Below, one piece after another: positions 7,127 through 21,913 of a stretch of DNA of 64,000 bases. Source of the DNA: Sporosarcina trichiuri. GTDB taxonomy: Bacteria; Bacillota; Bacilli; Bacillales_A; Planococcaceae. A program made the translations under genes and the position numbers. Each line of letters opens with the position of its first letter. Position 1 is the first letter of the stretch. The notes below the pieces were generated by a model. It worked only from the letters and a program-made list of their open reading frames with translations, made no database searches and had not been told where the DNA came from. The stretch lies in assembly GCF_030406775.1 (NCBI RefSeq), contig NZ_CP129119.1:282001-346000 (forward strand). The letters are read 5' to 3'.

Positions 7127-9505
7127 TTGGATACATTCGAACAACAATTGGAACAGCAGATCTTATCACTTATGAAAGAGGATGCATATAAGCCGCTGAC
7201 CGTGCAGGAAATCCAGGAATTGCTCGGCATGGAACAGGCGGCGGAATTCAAGGAACTCGTCAAGATGCTCGTCCACCTGGAGCAGAAAGGTGTGGTCATC
7301 CGCTCGCGGACGGACCGCTACGGCCTGCCGGAGCGCATGAATCTCGTGCGCGGGAAGTTCATCGGCCATGCGAAGGGATTCGGCTTTGTGACACCGGAGA
7401 CGGAGGGGATGGATGATATTTTCATCCCGCCGACGGAAGTGAATACCGCCATGAACGGCGACACGGTCCTTGTCCGCGTGGCGAACGGTTCATCCGGCGA
7501 CCGCCGGGAAGGCAGCATCATCCGCATCGCGGAGCGCAAGACGACGAAAGTGGTCGGAACGTACCAGGATAACCGCGGCTTCGGCTTCGTCATCCCGGAC
7601 GATAAGAAACTGCCGATGGATATCTTCATCGCAAAAGGCGACAACTTAGGCGCGATCGAAGGCCACAAAGTCGTCGTGGAGATCACTGAATTCCCAAGCG
7701 ACCGGAAATCGGCGACGGGCAAAGTGATCCAGATCCTCGGCCACAAAAACGATCCGGGTGTCGATATACTCTCGATTATCTACAAGCACGGCATCGAGAT
7801 CGAATTTCCGGACGACGTCATGAAGCAGACCGACAACGTGCCGGCGGAAATCCAGGAAAAAGATTGGTTCAAGCGGACCGACCTGCGCGACGTGCTGACG
7901 ATCACGATCGACGGCGCGGATGCGAAGGACCTGGATGACGCAATCTCGCTCGAGAAGAATGCAGACGGCACGCATACACTGTCCGTCCATATTTCGGACG
8001 TCAGCTATTATGTGACGGAACACTCACCGCTCGATAACGAAGCATATGAGCGCGGGACAAGTGTCTACTTGACGGACCGCGTCATCCCGATGCTGCCGCA
8101 CAAGCTGTCGAACGGCATCTGTTCACTCCATCCTCATGTGGACCGTCTGACATTGACGTGCCGCATGACGGTTGACCATAACGGGAAAGTGACGCACCAC
8201 GAGATCTACCCGAGTGTCATCAATTCCGATTACCGGATGACGTACCAGAACGTCTATAAAATCGTGGAAGAGAAAGACGAAGCCCTGCGTGAAGAATATG
8301 CAGAGATCGTACCGATGCTGATGGATATGGCAGATCTCATGAAGATCCTGCGCCAGAAGCGGGAAGACCGCGGTGCCATCGATTTCGACTTCAAGGAATC
8401 GAAGATCATCGTCGATGACGAAGGCTGGCCCGTCGACATCAAGATCATGGAACGGACGATTGCGGAGCGCATGATCGAGGAGTTCATGCTGCTGGCGAAC
8501 GAAACTGTCGCAGAGCACTTCCACTGGATGCAGGTGCCGTTCATGTACCGGATCCACGAAGACCCGAAGACGGAGAAACTGCAGCGGCTGTTCGAGTTCC
8601 TGACCAACTTCGGAATTCTCGTCAAAGGGGCGGGCAATAAGATCCATCCGCGCGCGCTCCAGGAGATCACCGAATCGGTTGCAGGCCTTCCGGAAGAAAC
8701 GGTCATATCGACGATGCTCCTGCGTTCGATGCAGCAGGCGAAGTATTATCAGGCGAGTCTTGGACACTTCGGCCTGTCGACGGATTTCTATACACACTTC
8801 ACATCACCGATCCGCCGCTATCCGGACTTGATCGTCCACCGGCTCATCCGGACGTACCTGTTCGAAAAGGATGTCTCACAGACGACGATCGCCCATTGGG
8901 ATGCGGAGCTGCCGGAAATCGCGGAGCACTCATCCGAGATGGAACGCCGCGCAGTCGATGCGGAACGCGATACCGATGCACTGAAGAAAGCGCAGTTCAT
9001 GGTGGACAAAGTCGGTGAGGAGTTCGAAGGGGTCATTTCATCCGTCACGAACTTCGGATTATTCGTCGAACTCGAGAATACGATAGAAGGACTCGTGCAC
9101 GTCAGCTACATGACGGACGATTATTACCGCTTCGACGACCGGTCGATGATGATGATCGGCGAGCACACGGGCAAGCAATACCGCATCGGCGATGAAGTCA
9201 CCGTGCGGGTGGCGGCTGTGAAACCGGAAGAGGCGTCAATCGATTTCGAGATCGCCGACATGAAGCAGAAATTCCACCGGACGCGGAAAGAAGCGCCGAA
9301 AGTGATCCATGCGCGCGGCAAATCAGGCGGCGACAGCAAATCCGGCAAGTCCGGACAGTCCGGTCAGTCCGGAAAACCAAACGGCTCCGGCAAGAAAGAC
9401 AGCGGGGGAGCACCTGGTAAGAAGAACGGCGGCAGCCAGAAGAAACGCTTCTATGAAGGCGTCGCGAAGAAGAACAAGAAACAGAAACCGAGAAAACGAA
9501 AGTGA
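7127..9505 (+). CDS. rnr: ribonuclease R
   Basis: Processive 3'-5' exoribonuclease that degrades structured RNA and, with tmRNA, the mRNA of stalled ribosomes. From the TTG at 7127 (AAGGAGGGG six nt upstream; a GTG at 7106 lacks such a site) it is 792 residues. In order: winged-helix N-terminus, two cold-shock/OB domains (GFGFVTPE near 85 and GFGFVIPDD near 152), the RNB catalytic domain from about 250 with [11 protein letters not shown] and [14 protein letters not shown], an S1 domain near 630-700, then a tail of about 70 residues rich in Gly, Ser and Lys. The basic tail is typical in kind but here is built from SGK/SGQ-like repeats. smpB and ssrA follow, forming a trans-translation module. 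Confidence 0.96.
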
Positions 9506-10125: not shown

Positions 10126-10482
10126 GGGGACGTTACGGATTCGACAGGGGTGGTCTGAGCGTGAGCTGCGCGTCGGAGGCTCGTCTCCGTCAGAAACGGA
10201 CCTTAATAATAACAGGCAAAACAAACAACAACCTAGCATTCGCAGCGTAAGCTGTTGAATCTGCCTTATGGTTCCATCGCCCATGTGGCGCTGTAAGGCT
10301 CAACCTATAGTGGGATACGCTGGCTGCTGCGTCTCGAGGCAGTCCAGAAGAGATTCACGAGATAGCGCCCCAGACGCCTCGTCTTCCGGCATACGGGTGC
10401 GCGAACCTAAATAGAAAGACTACACGCGTAGACGTTTACGTATTGGAGCCTCTGGACGTGGGTTCGACTCCCACCGTCTCCA
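10126..10482 (+). ncRNA. ssrA: transfer-messenger RNA (tmRNA)
   Basis: The 5' end GGGGACGTTACGGATTCGAC pairs with CGTCTCC at the 3' end to form the acceptor stem, and the T arm GGGTTCGACTCCCACC is intact. The tag reading frame starts at 10215 and encodes GKTNNNLAFAA followed by TAA at 10248; with the alanine charged on tmRNA the tag is (A)GKTNNNLAFAA. This is shorter than the B. subtilis tag but keeps the protease-recognised AA end. The acceptor stem and discriminator A are followed by TAG, so the final CCA is not encoded and must be added. A terminator follows. Confidence 0.96.
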
Positions 10483-10497
10483 TAGTAATATGGCAAA

Positions 10498-10528
10498 ACA
10501 CCACCCGCCGAGGGTGGTGTTTTTGTTT
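10498..10528 (+). terminator. intrinsic terminator after ssrA
   Basis: 9-bp perfect stem ACACCACCC / GGGTGGTGT, 5-nt loop, then TTTTGTTT. Confidence 0.9.
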
Positions 10529-10570: not shown

Positions 10571-10745
10571 AGTGCTCATAAACACTGGCGTTCCGCTCAT
10601 AAATCTCTGGAAGTGATCATAACTCCCCGATTCCGCTCATAAAACCGGTAAAGTGATCATAAATCTCAGATTCTGCTCATAAACCTGTGAAAGCGATCAT
10701 AAACATGGAAATCCGCTCATAATCCTCGGAAAGTGATCATAACGC
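10571..10745. repeat. 20-nt-period intergenic array A (alternating GCTCAT/GATCAT)
   Basis: Nine units between the ssrA terminator and the 3' end of the amidase gene. The TCATAA core recurs at 21 then exactly 20 nt steps (TCAT ends at 10579, 10600, 10620, 10640, 10660, 10680, 10700, 10720, 10740). After the first two units, cores alternate strictly between CGCTCATAAA and GTGATCATAAA, giving a 40-nt super-period. The 7-10 nt between cores vary. The core is usually preceded by TTCC/ATCC in one class and GGAA/GAAA in the other. No ORF runs through it. Confidence 0.85.
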
Positions 10746-10774: not shown

Positions 10775-12235
10775 TCACTCACCAATCCCCAAACATCTGC
10801 GGTACCCACCAAACTCCCGCTCCAACAGTTCCCCAACTTGAAACAAGAGCTCTTCATTCCCTTTCCTGCTCATCAGCTGAACGCTGATCGGCATACCATC
10901 CTCATCTCTGCCGACCGGCACAACAAGCGACGGCAGTCCCCAGACGTTCGCATAGCCGGTGAATGGCATATACTTTAAAAATTCTTTCCGCAGGGAGAAG
11001 ATCTCCTTATACATCCGGCCGTGGAGCGGAGCGCCGGTGTGGTAGACAGGGAACACGACAATGCGGTCGGCGAGATAGCTGTTGAGCTCACGGTCTCCTT
11101 GTTCGATGATGGCATCGATTTCCGCCCGCCGTTTGGCAGAGGGACGGAACAGGGTGGCGCCGATGATCGCCCACGAAAGATACGGATGGATGGCGGATCG
11201 TCTGCCGAGTTTGGCTTTGGCGAATTCCTTTATGGCGTTCGCCCCTTTGCCGGGCAGGGCGATGTCCCGCATGCCGGATGCGCCGTCGAACGACATCATC
11301 TCCTGCCACAAGCGGGCACTGTCCCGGAAGTAGGGCGGCTCCTTGCGCGCAACGGGGAAGTCCTGTTTGAGGTGCGCCGCCACCTGGTTGAGTGCATCTG
11401 CCGTTTTCCCTGACATTGGATAGGGGCCGGCCGGCGGCAGCACATCGATCTTCAAATCGTCTGTCTGCCGTTCCTCCATTGACTGCTCGGCGATAAGGCC
11501 ATACAGCAGGCGCATGTCACGGACCGACTTCCCCATCGGGCCGAAGCCGATCATCCGCTCCTGGATCGGGACGCCGACTGCAGGGAATGAGCCGTCGCCG
11601 GACACTTGGAACCGGCCGCTTTTGAAGCCGATGACGCCGTTGAAATGGCTCGGGAACCGGATCGAGCCGCCGATATCCGAGCCGATGCCGACCGCGGCGC
11701 CGCCTGCCGCAAGAAGAGCACCTTCGCCTCCGCTCGAGCCGCCGGCTGTCCGGGCCGGGTCCCATGGGTTGTTGGTGCGGCCATACAGGTTGTTGTCGGT
11801 CTCCTGGCAGAAACATAGTTCCGGCGTATTCGTCTTGCCGAGGATGATGGCCCCGGCCTGCTTCAGCCGTCTGACCACTTCGGCATCCTTCTCCGCCACT
11901 ATGTGCTGACGGTGAAGCAGGCCGCCCGTCGTCTTCATGCCGGCTGTGTCGAATGCTTCCTTCACACTGATCGGCACGCCGAACAGTTCGCCGGTGGCTG
12001 TCCCGGCTGCGAGCTGCCGGTCTTTCTCCTCGGCTTCCTGGAGCGCCTGCTGGAAGCGGTCTTCCACCATTGCGTTAATGTGCGGGTTCATCCTCTGCAA
12101 GTGGGTGACGTACGCACCGACTGCCTCAGTGCATGTCAGCTCACCTGTTTGTATAGCTTTCACTGTTTCCGTGGCGTCCATGTCGAGAATGGCGGGCATC
12201 GTTTGTGCAAGAACCATGGTCCCTTGTTCATCCAT
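10775..12235 (-). CDS. amidase signature family protein
   Basis: Amidase-signature hydrolase of 486 residues; members cleave carboxamides and acyl-amides and the substrate cannot be told from sequence. The Ser-cisSer-Lys triad is visible: Lys92 in SVKEAF, Ser167/168 in AGGSSGGEG and the nucleophile Ser191 in DIGGSIRFP. It is longer than a typical GatA fragment, and no gatC or gatB is beside it, so a stand-alone amidase is likelier than Glu-tRNA amidotransferase. The minus-strand ATG follows AAAGGAGG. A perfect AGTAAC/GTTACT palindrome sits in its promoter region. It ends against repeat array A and is convergent with ssrA. Confidence 0.9.
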   Translation of the reverse strand: MDEQGTMVLAQTMPAILDMDATETVKAIQTGELTCTEAVGAYVTHLQRMNPHINAMVEDRFQQALQEAEEKDRQLAAGTATGELFGVPISVKEAFDTAGMKTTGGLLHRQHIVAEKDAEVVRRLKQAGAIILGKTNTPELCFCQETDNNLYGRTNNPWDPARTAGGSSGGEGALLAAGGAAVGIGSDIGGSIRFPSHFNGVIGFKSGRFQVSGDGSFPAVGVPIQERMIGFGPMGKSVRDMRLLYGLIAEQSMEERQTDDLKIDVLPPAGPYPMSGKTADALNQVAAHLKQDFPVARKEPPYFRDSARLWQEMMSFDGASGMRDIALPGKGANAIKEFAKAKLGRRSAIHPYLSWAIIGATLFRPSAKRRAEIDAIIEQGDRELNSYLADRIVVFPVYHTGAPLHGRMYKEIFSLRKEFLKYMPFTGYANVWGLPSLVVPVGRDEDGMPISVQLMSRKGNEELLFQVGELLEREFGGYRRCLGIGE

Positions 12236-13449: not shown

Positions 13450-13853
13450 TATGAAAATCCCTTTCCCCTTACGATTTCCATGTCTGCAATCAGGTGTGTT
13501 ACTACTTTTCTCCCGCGATCTTCCGCGGACAAACTTCGATTTGCATAGCTGTATCTTATTGTGGATAGGTGAATGGAAGAAAATGCATATATGAAGCAAA
13601 CAGAGAATGAAAGAGTTGCTAGTAAGTCAGCAGGGTTCATACAGGACCTGTTGACGCGGGAAAAGTGATCATAAACTTAAGCATTTCGCTCATAAATCGT
13701 GAAAAATGATCATAAATCCGCCATTCCGCTCATAAACACGGGAAAGTGATCATAAAACCCGGAAATCACTCATAAACCCTGAAAAATGATCATAACCCAT
13801 GCCAAACCGCTCATAAACTTGACCCCGCATGTCCCCGCCTGCCCATTCACGCA
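13450..13853. other. intergenic region with array B
   Basis: About 400 nt. The first 200 nt hold only the ribosome-binding site of the minus-strand membrane-protein gene and AT-rich sequence that presumably includes its promoter. Array B occupies 13661-13820. No convincing ORF. Confidence 0.5.
13661..13820. repeat. 20-nt-period intergenic array B (alternating GATCAT/GCTCAT)
   Basis: Eight TCATAA cores whose TCAT starts at 13669, 13690, 13710, 13730, 13750, 13770, 13790 and 13811, i.e. 20-nt steps with a 21 at each end. Cores alternate GTGATCATAAA / CGCTCATAAA; one unit reads CACTCAT. Spacers differ from those of arrays A and C. Lies between the start of one minus-strand gene and the 3' end of rocB. 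Confidence 0.85.
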
Positions 13854-13886
13854 AAAAAGCTGACCTCACCAGGTCAGCTTTTTCCT
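13854..13886. terminator. bidirectional terminator after rocB
   Basis: 13-bp perfect stem AAAAAGCTGACCT / AGGTCAGCTTTTT with a CACC loop. T-tracts on both strands; it ends rocB on the minus strand. Confidence 0.88.
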
Positions 13887-13908: not shown

Positions 13909-15591
13909 TCAAGCCGGCAGCAGCCCTTCTTCCGCAGCCTGCGCAAGCAGCGCCACCGTCGCAGTCCGGATCAGGCCCGGCAGCACGCCGAACGAGTATG
14001 GCTTATACAGGCGCTCGGTCCATTTGTGGCCGTCCTTGCCGTAGACGCCCATGTTGACGGACGGGATGTCGAGCCCCTGGATCGCCTTATATGGAATCGG
14101 GAAGAATGTCTCCCATTCCGGCAGGTTGTTAAGCAGGGGAGCCAGCTCGTCTTCCGTCTCGTGGATGGACAGGAAGCTGCCGTCCGCCAAATAGGGGAAG
14201 AACTTCTTCAAAGCAAACTGTTCGCCGGTCGCAGCCGACGCTTCCGCCAGAATTGCTGTCAGTGTCTCCTGGATCGCCGCGTCGCGCGCAACGTCCGTCT
14301 TCAAATAGTTGTGCGGCAGGAACGGCGGCGCGAAGAACACGATGACGCGCGCTTTCTTGGCTGGGTCCGCTTCCTGCAGGGCGCCGGCGATTTCGAAACT
14401 GATCTCCCGGAAGTCGTCCGATTTGCTGTCTGCAATCGCCTGTTCGATGATCGGCTGGACATCGATGCCCTGTTCGATCAGCTGCTGCATGTACTCCTCG
14501 TACGTCACGACATCGATCTCCCATGACAGGTCGCGTGTCGGCAGACCGGTGAAGCGGATATACTGCTGGAACTGCTCCTGCAAATACTGCTCGGTTTCCG
14601 CGCAGACATTCTTCGTTTCCCTCAGCAGCTTGCCGAGGATCTCACCCGGCGTGTCTTCGTAGACGAAGTAATTGAAGTACAGATGGCTGCTCGAGGCAGT
14701 CTGGACGGTATAAATGTCTTTTGTGTCCCGCTGGTACAGGCAGGTCGGCGGCAGGACGAGTTCGCCTTCGATCTGCTCCGCGAGTTCGTACCGGTTGTGG
14801 AAGCGCTCTGTCAGTTTCGCAGCGATGAAGTTCGGATCGATGCCGGACAGCGTATCGCCGACATGCACCTCACGGCCGTATATATGGAAGCAAGGCAGGA
14901 TCTTGCCCGCCGCGCCAGTGTAGATATACCGGTGCGGGTCGCCGTCATAGAGCGGGGTGATGAAGTCCGTGTTGATGGCGAGCGCATACTCGAGGCCCTG
15001 TTCCGCCTGCAGCCTGTTCAATTCGGCGAGCGCTCCGATGATGCCGCGGTGTTCGCTTTCCTCGTCGCCGTTCAGCAGGAGCAGGAGATTGCCTTCCAGC
15101 TCGTCGCGATGCTCGGAGAAATGCAGGAGGTTCACCATGTGGACTGCTGCGCCGCTCTTCATGTCGACGGCACCGCGGCCGAACATCCAGTCACCGGACT
15201 GGGCGTCCCGCCGGAGTTCATCATCGTTTTCGTAGGAGCTGAAAAACTCCGCGAGCGCATCTGGCGAGAAGGCACTGTCTTTCAGCTGGCCGAAGTCTTC
15301 CACGCCGACCGTGTCGATATGGGAATGATAGATGATCGTCTTTTTCGAGAACGACTTCCCTTCGACGAACGCAAAGACATTCTTGCGTCCGATCGGATCA
15401 TTTTCGACCGGCTGCATCCACAAGTGTTCGGGATGCTCCTGGAAGTAGGGGAAGGAGCTCAGGATCCGGAAGAGCTCTCCCGCCACTTCGACTTCCCCTG
15501 ATGTGCCGTTGATGCTCGGGATGCCGACCAGATGTTTCGTAATCGCCTCAAGTCTCTGTTCCGTTGTCAGTGGGTGGATGGATGCGTACAT
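13909..15591 (-). CDS. rocB: M20-family metallopeptidase, RocB-like
   Basis: 560-residue M20/M25/M40-type peptidase closely matching in length and layout B. subtilis RocB, an arginine-catabolism protein of unproven reaction. The zinc site is visible as YHSHIDTVG (His, Asp), the catalytic DEES region (NGDEESEH) and the FGRGAVDMKSG loop. A TTG at 15612 opens the frame, but the ATG at 15591 is preceded by CAGGAGG and is preferred. It is the second gene of an operon with the AGCS symporter 22 nt upstream, under an IclR-type divergent regulator, so it may hydrolyse an imported peptide or acyl-amino acid. No rocA/C/D/E/F is nearby. Confidence 0.85.
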   Translation of the reverse strand: MYASIHPLTTEQRLEAITKHLVGIPSINGTSGEVEVAGELFRILSSFPYFQEHPEHLWMQPVENDPIGRKNVFAFVEGKSFSKKTIIYHSHIDTVGVEDFGQLKDSAFSPDALAEFFSSYENDDELRRDAQSGDWMFGRGAVDMKSGAAVHMVNLLHFSEHRDELEGNLLLLLNGDEESEHRGIIGALAELNRLQAEQGLEYALAINTDFITPLYDGDPHRYIYTGAAGKILPCFHIYGREVHVGDTLSGIDPNFIAAKLTERFHNRYELAEQIEGELVLPPTCLYQRDTKDIYTVQTASSSHLYFNYFVYEDTPGEILGKLLRETKNVCAETEQYLQEQFQQYIRFTGLPTRDLSWEIDVVTYEEYMQQLIEQGIDVQPIIEQAIADSKSDDFREISFEIAGALQEADPAKKARVIVFFAPPFLPHNYLKTDVARDAAIQETLTAILAEASAATGEQFALKKFFPYLADGSFLSIHETEDELAPLLNNLPEWETFFPIPYKAIQGLDIPSVNMGVYGKDGHKWTERLYKPYSFGVLPGLIRTATVALLAQAAEEGLLPA

Positions 15592-15613
15592 AGCAAATAC
15601 CTCCTGCTTCAAA

Positions 15614-21016: not shown

Positions 21017-21045
21017 AACACCATCCATCGCGGATGGTGTTTTTG
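21017..21045 (+). terminator. intrinsic terminator after ltaS
   Basis: 10-bp stem AACACCATCC / GGATGGTGTT, 5-nt loop, then TTTTG. Nearly identical to the hairpin at 21594. Confidence 0.9.
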
Positions 21046-21098
21046 TGTTAGGGGAAAGCACGTGCGATAACTGACGGGTGCTTATTAAGTTGGGTCTT

Positions 21099-21230
21099 TG
21101 ATCATAAATCGAGGGAAGTGATCATAAAAATGGGGAAGTGATCATAAAACAGGAAAAATGATCATAAAACAGAGAAAGTGATCATAAATCTGGGAAAGTG
21201 ATCATAAAACCGAGGAAAGTGATCATAACT
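21099..21230. repeat. 20-nt-period intergenic array C (all GATCAT)
   Basis: Seven cores GTGATCATAAA with TCAT starts at 21102, 21122, 21142, 21162, 21182, 21202 and 21223. Unlike arrays A and B there is no GCTCAT alternation. The nt between cores vary but stay purine-rich before each core (GGGAAGTG, GGAAAAATG). Confidence 0.87.
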
Positions 21231-21808: not shown

Positions 21809-21913
21809 ACCCGCCCGTTCCCACGCCGAACCCGCCCGTTCCCACGCCGAACCCGCCCGTTCTCAATAGGAACCCGCCCTTTCGAACCAGCAACCCGCCC
21901 ATTCCCGCCCTCC
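21809..21913. repeat. 21-nt-period GC-rich array D
   Basis: Five units starting with ACCCGCCC at 21809, 21830, 21851, 21872 and 21893, an exact 21-nt period. Units 1 and 2 are identical; units 3-5 keep the core ACCCGCCC(N)TTC but diverge in the last 9 nt. On the minus strand it carries repeated GGGCGGG runs able to form G-quadruplexes. It ends just before a strong terminator. Confidence 0.88.

Follow-up and report, generated by a model that had tools for sequence, protein, structure and literature searches.

The locus raises a simple question: what is the regularly spaced array of short direct repeats that lies behind the tmRNA gene (ssrA) of Sporosarcina trichiuri, is it peculiar to this place, and what could it be for? 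The window, i.e., the whole 64-kb stretch of DNA that was analysed, carries array A and two further arrays of the same family, B and C, which were overlooked in the earlier, sequence-only reading. The relevant features are as follows.

10126..10485, + strand: ssrA (tmRNA; Rfam RF00023), upstream of array A
10498..10526, + strand: hairpin with T run resembling an intrinsic terminator, following ssrA, about 45 nt before the start of array A, recognized from the sequence
10576..10742, + strand: array A, nine cores of classes C C A C A C A C A (C, GC-TCATAA; A, GA-TCATAA), from a pattern scan and unit listing
10775..12235, − strand: convergent ORF downstream of array A, amidase-like by eye, with its stop about 33 nt from the array
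13669..13816, + strand: array B, eight cores with steps of 21, 20, 20, 20, 20, 20 and 21 nt, same family as array A
13853..13885, strand not given: terminator-like hairpin between array B and the 3' end of the minus-strand ORF 13909-15612
21017..21047, + strand: terminator-like hairpin with T run for the gene upstream, some 52 nt ahead of array C
21102..21228, + strand: array C, seven cores, all of GA class, with five steps of 20 nt and one of 21 nt, then CTTCACA; same family as array A

All nine TCATAA cores previously described for array A were recovered on the + strand (at 10576, 10597, 10617, 10637, 10657, 10677, 10697, 10717 and 10737), and their rigid spacing was confirmed, with a first step of 21 nt followed by seven of 20 nt. 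From the second core onwards the cores had been described as alternating strictly between two words; this is correct for the GC and GA classes, but the exact words vary (e.g., TGCTCATAA at core 6 and GCGATCATAA at core 7). Core 1 is of the GC class, as is core 2. The TTCC and GGAA flanks of the cores, taken in the original prediction for short complementary arms, are only a trend in array A and are missing from GA-only arrays, GC-only arrays and several other species, so that short hairpins formed by such arms were rejected as not general across arrays and species. The interval from the amidase-like ORF (10775..12235) to array A yielded no terminator. Over the whole window, TCATAA occurs 43 times, compared to 20.9 ± 4.1 times in shuffled sequences. 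A separate tandem repeat, of period 21 and 4.7 copies, occurs at 21809-21906.

A dispersed family with two unit classes

A search of the complete genome, as had been proposed on first inspection of the locus, found the array pattern spread over the chromosome and not confined to array A. Across the 3.06-Mb genome, three cores at steps of 18-20 nt matched 121 + 87 times, the reversed pattern used as a control never matched, and five cores at exact 20-nt steps gave 59 + 38 matches (the whole list). Counted from the stretches around pattern matches together with the window, a procedure that could miss arrays without five exact 20-nt steps, there are at least 55 arrays in this genome (G000), array A among them; a 56th run, at 3054300, was removed beforehand as unrelated. 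Arrays of G000 have 3-10 cores, and up to 25 were seen in another Sporosarcina. The 51 arrays that have five or more cores show inner steps of 20 nt in 205 of 216 cases, and their end steps are often 21 nt (the first in 19 arrays, the last in 34), a regularity missed in the earlier reading. In array 2381837 the units are almost identical, and in most others the spacers differ from unit to unit while core and step are kept. The array is often part of a longer element. CTTCA or CTTTA follows directly after 34 of the 55, and a conserved tail block matched 22 times in the stretches, 19 of these within 250 nt 3' of an array and on the same strand. The block seen after about 19 arrays (e.g., 2191500 and 2233406) reads CCGCGG ... 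GCCGCGC ... CAAGTCAAAGACTGGCTTG ... CTCCGCTGCGCTCCGC, TTTT, and its consensus RNA structure is weak (-5.9 and -6.4 kcal/mol). The statement that no described family has this form was borne out: at the gathering score the Rfam matches in the window were the tmRNA and the lysine and SAM riboswitches, with none on the arrays, and searches of open-licence papers returned no counterpart. The evidence therefore supports a genome-wide repeat family without a described counterpart, as far as the open-licence literature was searched.

The two classes of unit are real, and several species share them. Among 260 units that follow a 20-nt step, the class before the core is GA in 154 and GC in 102, with the unit consensus GGAAAGTGA-TCATAAA for the GA class and GATTCCGC-TCATAAA for the GC class. 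Genome-wide, 190 of 328 pairs of neighbouring units are of unlike class, above the maximum of 186 seen in 2000 within-array shuffles (159.4 ± 7.2), so that alternation is real yet not strict. As a general rule strict alternation fails, since array 303102 is all GA, and 111904 and 625515 are all GC. It is stronger in Sporosarcina sp. BI001-red, with 170 of 195 GA/GC neighbours in the stretches examined, and is nearly absent in NCCP-2716, where 79 of 84 neighbours are GC-GC.

Arrays occupy particular places. By the calls of a home-made gene finder, which missed a transposase of an insertion sequence, none of the 55 lies inside a gene. With arrays sharing one gap counted separately, 24 lie in convergent, 25 in tandem and 5 in divergent gaps, and one in a gap of undetermined type; array-free gaps of at least 100 nt in the same stretches were convergent in 6 cases, tandem in 90 and divergent in 36. 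The arrays of tandem gaps run along transcription in 12 cases and against it in 13, which argues against an RNA read in one sense. Of 58 gene ends next to arrays, 44 have a terminator-like site between gene and array, compared to 64 of 151 in the control; four others have such a site only past the array, and the remaining ten yielded none.

In a dinucleotide wedge model, the mean predicted bend of the 55 arrays is 0.189, compared to 0.043 ± 0.036 for 1500 random stretches, and 54 of the 55 lie above the 90th percentile of the latter. For 30 regular arrays the mean predicted bend exceeded that of all 60 column-permuted versions in two related models, and a 21-bp period would give a larger bend in the model than one of 20. 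Predicted bends are strong in three other array-rich genomes and weak (0.03-0.09) in G031, G032, Fictibacillus and Bacillus niameyensis. RNA folding is mildly better than that of shuffled sequences, with a mean z of -1.5 for the top and -1.1 for the bottom strand (28 of the 55 arrays) and some values near -5.

Constraint, persistence and distribution

In the closest genome, G253, 48 of the 55 arrays could be paired at the corresponding place. Differences number 10 of 2039 positions in cores, 263 of 4476 in spacers and 344 of 6360 in flanks, roughly a tenth as much change in cores as in either of the other two. A column was counted as core if at least one of the two genomes had TCATAA there, so that a core lost from both escapes the count. 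By phase within the 20-nt unit, divergence is lowest at 17-19 and 0-6 and highest at 8-12. Since most paired loci are nearly identical, this contrast is carried by a small number of divergent ones. In seven loci picked afterwards for high divergence (295669, 1761737, 1841843, 2105024, 2130154, 2145337 and 2253643) the differences are 6 of 341 in cores, 170 of 769 in spacers and 291 of 1369 in flanks, i.e., spacers drift like flanks and cores stay, the spacer figure being possibly inflated by partial misalignment as some pairs differ in copy number. Loci 793310 and 2381837 have at least five flank differences each and none in core or spacer, and at 1387043-1387170 there are eleven spacer differences between the two strains and none in core or flank. 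Copy number itself varies between the two genomes, by 20 nt (805497, 2381837), 40 nt (1473429, 1746288, 2168954), 60 nt (949808) and 37 nt (2094416). A 40-nt step, the size of the duplication unit suggested originally, thus does occur among the strain differences, alongside those of 20, 60 and, once, 37 nt. Duplications of the whole element also differ between the strains, at 448829 and 2105024.

Many arrays are older than the split between S. trichiuri and a sister species, G021. Thirty arrays of the latter (among the matches listed, plus one stretch) were considered. Of these, 16 occupy a gap that also has an array in G000, as shown by alignment of both flanks (68-88% identity), and in every one of the 16 pairs the two arrays point the same way. 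Only one of the 30 lies in a gap without an array in G000, and for the other 13 the G000 stretches lacked one or both flanks. In the G021 arrays examined, 268 of 278 cores are of the GC class, and many cores have changed class between the two genomes, at dispersed places with unlike spacers. A changed reader, or the loss of one of two readers, would be a simpler explanation for this than gene conversion. The place of array A is itself occupied in other array-rich genomes: arrays of at least three cores lie behind ssrA in G021, G024, G019, G229 and G242, and reduced forms occur in G009 (two cores) and G007 (remnants). None was found within the 1.5 kb examined behind ssrA in array-poor or array-free genomes, where inserts in ssrA may hide a distal array. 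In G253 the ssrA-side array lies past such an insert: about 12 kb (C3, ~78571-91307) separate ssrA from a duplicated ssrA 3' end that adjoins array A (compare window 10126-10490), the arrangement that integration of an element in ssrA would leave. Short additional matches to the 3' end of ssrA, of a similar kind, occur in several relatives.

An order-wide search with the five-core pattern matched 19 of 68 Sporosarcina genomes and one of 193 others (G067), and as 49 of the 68 have no such match the system is dispensable in the genus. The three-core pattern added one match each in G034 and G035, both without a five-core match. A stricter four-core pattern occurred in three of 398 genomes of a class-wide sample (G000, G031 and G612). 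A tree of ssrA sequences from 25 genomes grouped the nine that have at least 97 five-core matches into a single clade (support 1.000). It did not include a tenth genome with that many matches, G248, in which ssrA was truncated by the contig end. Among the matches listed for the named collection are Sporosarcina, three Fictibacillus loci and one array of Bacillus niameyensis, and repeats with other units occur elsewhere. The B. niameyensis array (L187:5753-7538) consists of 90 head-to-tail 20-bp units with the CGCTCATAAA core, as here, between convergent ORFs. The array of G067, which belongs to another genus, was not counted in the family; it also repeats TCATAA every 20 nt, but its spacers, of the CTCCTTAAT type, are quite unlike those of the family. 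This array is located beside a terminator-like hairpin (L110, minus strand, near 8948), and perhaps represents a separate or very distant family. Array A had no match to plasmids and phages at 1e-5. Viral contigs matched in 14 stretches, and the seven that were inspected all had other units.

Known systems and the reading of the arrays

Several known systems resemble the arrays in part. In CRISPR loci repeats of about 24 nt or more are separated by spacers of similar length; the arrays likewise combine a repeat with a variable spacer, but the core has 6-10 nt, the step is 20 nt, and the spacers drift by substitution at the rate of the flanks. Iterons and parS/parC-like centromere arrays place protein sites in tandem, about two helical turns apart, as the putative sites are here, but 55 chromosomal arrays are a different arrangement and no Rep or Par family was found among ten neighbour proteins. 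The REP/BIME elements of enterobacteria and pseudomonads also occur in many dispersed intergenic copies, as the 55 arrays do, and PMC2817692 and PMC3733652 propose protein and supercoiling roles for them. The present units, from another phylum, differ in being direct, non-palindromic, of a single orientation and at a fixed 20-bp step; in place of palindromic hairpins, only TGATCA within the GA cores is self-complementary. TIGR arrays, as described in PMC12045711, are built of 36-nt units in which edge and loop repeats alternate, and are similar to the present arrays in having two alternating short conserved words and spacers of about 9 nt. They differ in that a pair takes up 40 nt here, only 190 of 328 neighbours alternate, there are 55 arrays, and no Nop-domain effector was found. 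None of 17 genomes had a match to the Nop domain (PF01798) over the cut-off, and G000 had none at E <= 1; archaeal controls were positive, although a very divergent Tas could escape. One sub-threshold match occurred in the array-free genome G018. TIGR-Tas was rejected on the Nop-domain result and the mismatch in architecture. The tested features do not fit CRISPR, TIGR-Tas or REP.

The arrays are probably, by a modest balance of the evidence, DNA docking strips for one or two putative DNA-binding proteins, perhaps acting as a boundary or topological anchor in transcription-quiet gaps. A fixed helical step, constrained words, free spacers, the lack of an orientation bias, a mostly quiet position and persistence fit such docking arrays. 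Protein binding is what we infer from features that can be observed directly, i.e., the arrays, their spacing, constrained cores, positions and persistence at orthologous places; the identity of the reader protein and its job there are guesses. Each 20-bp unit would offer one site of about 10 bp, YG[A/C]TCATAAA, to be read by one or two sequence-specific proteins, and sites about two helical turns apart on DNA that is predicted to be bent could allow several copies to load side by side. The strips lie mostly past terminators, often between convergent genes, and in either orientation relative to transcription. Their likeliest job might be to halt residual read-through, to hold or wrap DNA, or to recruit a topoisomerase or an SMC-type machine. 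No shared family suggesting a partner was found among the ten neighbour proteins (six loci, array-poor genomes). Also counting against docking are dispensability in the genus, the reduced arrays and remnants behind ssrA (G009, G007), the weak bends, and gene ends without a terminator, including that of the ORF next to array A. The mildly better folding of top-strand RNA likewise counts against it, and makes an RNA role conceivable. If a protein does read the arrays, they would mark a Bacillota system that organises the chromosome or sets boundaries to transcription, and a natural experiment would come with it, in species with and without arrays and in sister species with different site classes at shared places. 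A more specific version, tentative and on present evidence rather doubtful, is a genome-wide two-letter DNA lattice, in which two related proteins, or two states of one, would occupy GA and GC sites on bent, two-turn-phased DNA in quiet chromosomal gaps, with the code co-evolving with its reader across many arrays simultaneously. Co-evolution is suggested by G021, where the cores are nearly all of the GC class while the arrays keep their places, and this sister species provides the best natural test of a two-protein lattice. If correct, the lattice would be a bacterial chromosome-organising system not previously described, as far as searched.

Four other readings are less likely. It is conceivable, if unlikely, that the arrays are a REP/BIME-like selfish or semi-mobile repeat, with array and tail spreading together by duplication, recombination or a helper transposase and landing harmlessly behind terminators, with no cellular job. 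The composite structure of the element, with its frequent CTTCA/CTTTA and tail block, is as this predicts, and so are duplicated elements side by side (e.g., 2145050/2145337 and 2191500/2191796), the strain-variable duplications (448829 and 2105024) and the patchy presence in Sporosarcina. However, it does not account for cores being constrained while spacers drift at a flank-like rate, or for position and orientation being kept at about 80% identity, and array A matches no plasmid or phage at 1e-5 and has non-palindromic units. A clean pair of empty and occupied sites with target duplication was not seen between G000 and G253, because nearly all paired places hold arrays in both genomes. The same constraint on cores makes it improbable that the arrays are neutral minisatellites, made and kept by slippage and unequal exchange: copy-number changes of mostly 20, 40 or 60 nt, the 90-copy array of B. 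niameyensis and the near-identical units of 2381837 are what such a process would leave, but in most arrays the spacers vary from unit to unit while core and step stay, spacers have diverged as flanks have with cores unchanged, and convergent gaps are strongly preferred.

Intrinsic curvature alone, placing supercoil apices or aiding terminators without a dedicated protein, is very improbable as the whole explanation. The strong predicted bend in G000 and three other array-rich genomes and the location behind terminators speak for it; against it, the best-conserved word is TCATAA rather than the A-tracts of the spacers, weakly bent arrays exist (G031, G032), and the 20-bp step is kept though a period of 21 bp would bend more in the model. 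Least credible is a TIGR-like RNA array, in which a transcript would be processed to small guide or sponge RNAs and the spacers would carry the information. Its two alternating words and spacers of about 9 nt do resemble the dual-repeat arrays of PMC12045711, and folding is mildly negative in z, but besides the missing Nop-domain family, the 40 rather than 36 nt per pair, the lax alternation and the 55 copies, the arrays have no orientation bias in tandem gaps and lie mostly behind the terminators of other genes.

An IS110-family element within the arrays

The arrays are also invaded. A 1768-bp element with an IS110-family transposase matched four times in G000, its copies identical and all inside arrays.

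L068:5836-7603 (G000 ~2131935-2133702): copy of the IS110-family element, with further copies in L064, L066 and L081

The insertion point of all four has the same phase, between TTCCGCT and CTCATAA, so that the target in the sense of the transposase reads TTATGAG / AGCGGAA. The element resembles in this the IS elements found within REPs, which, in PMC1525189 and PMC11208160, are described as targets of insertion sequences that include IS621 of the IS110 family. The 376-nt non-coding 3' end of the present element contains TTATGAGC, then TCCGC 10 nt later. Under the rules given in PMC11208160, the two motifs fit a putative bridge RNA, as its left and right target guides. The arrays are an evident landing pad for this element, and possibly a naturally programmed bridge-RNA target. 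With these target-like motifs having been sought after the target was seen, TTATGAG followed by TCCGC within 25 nt occurred in three of 5000 shuffled versions.
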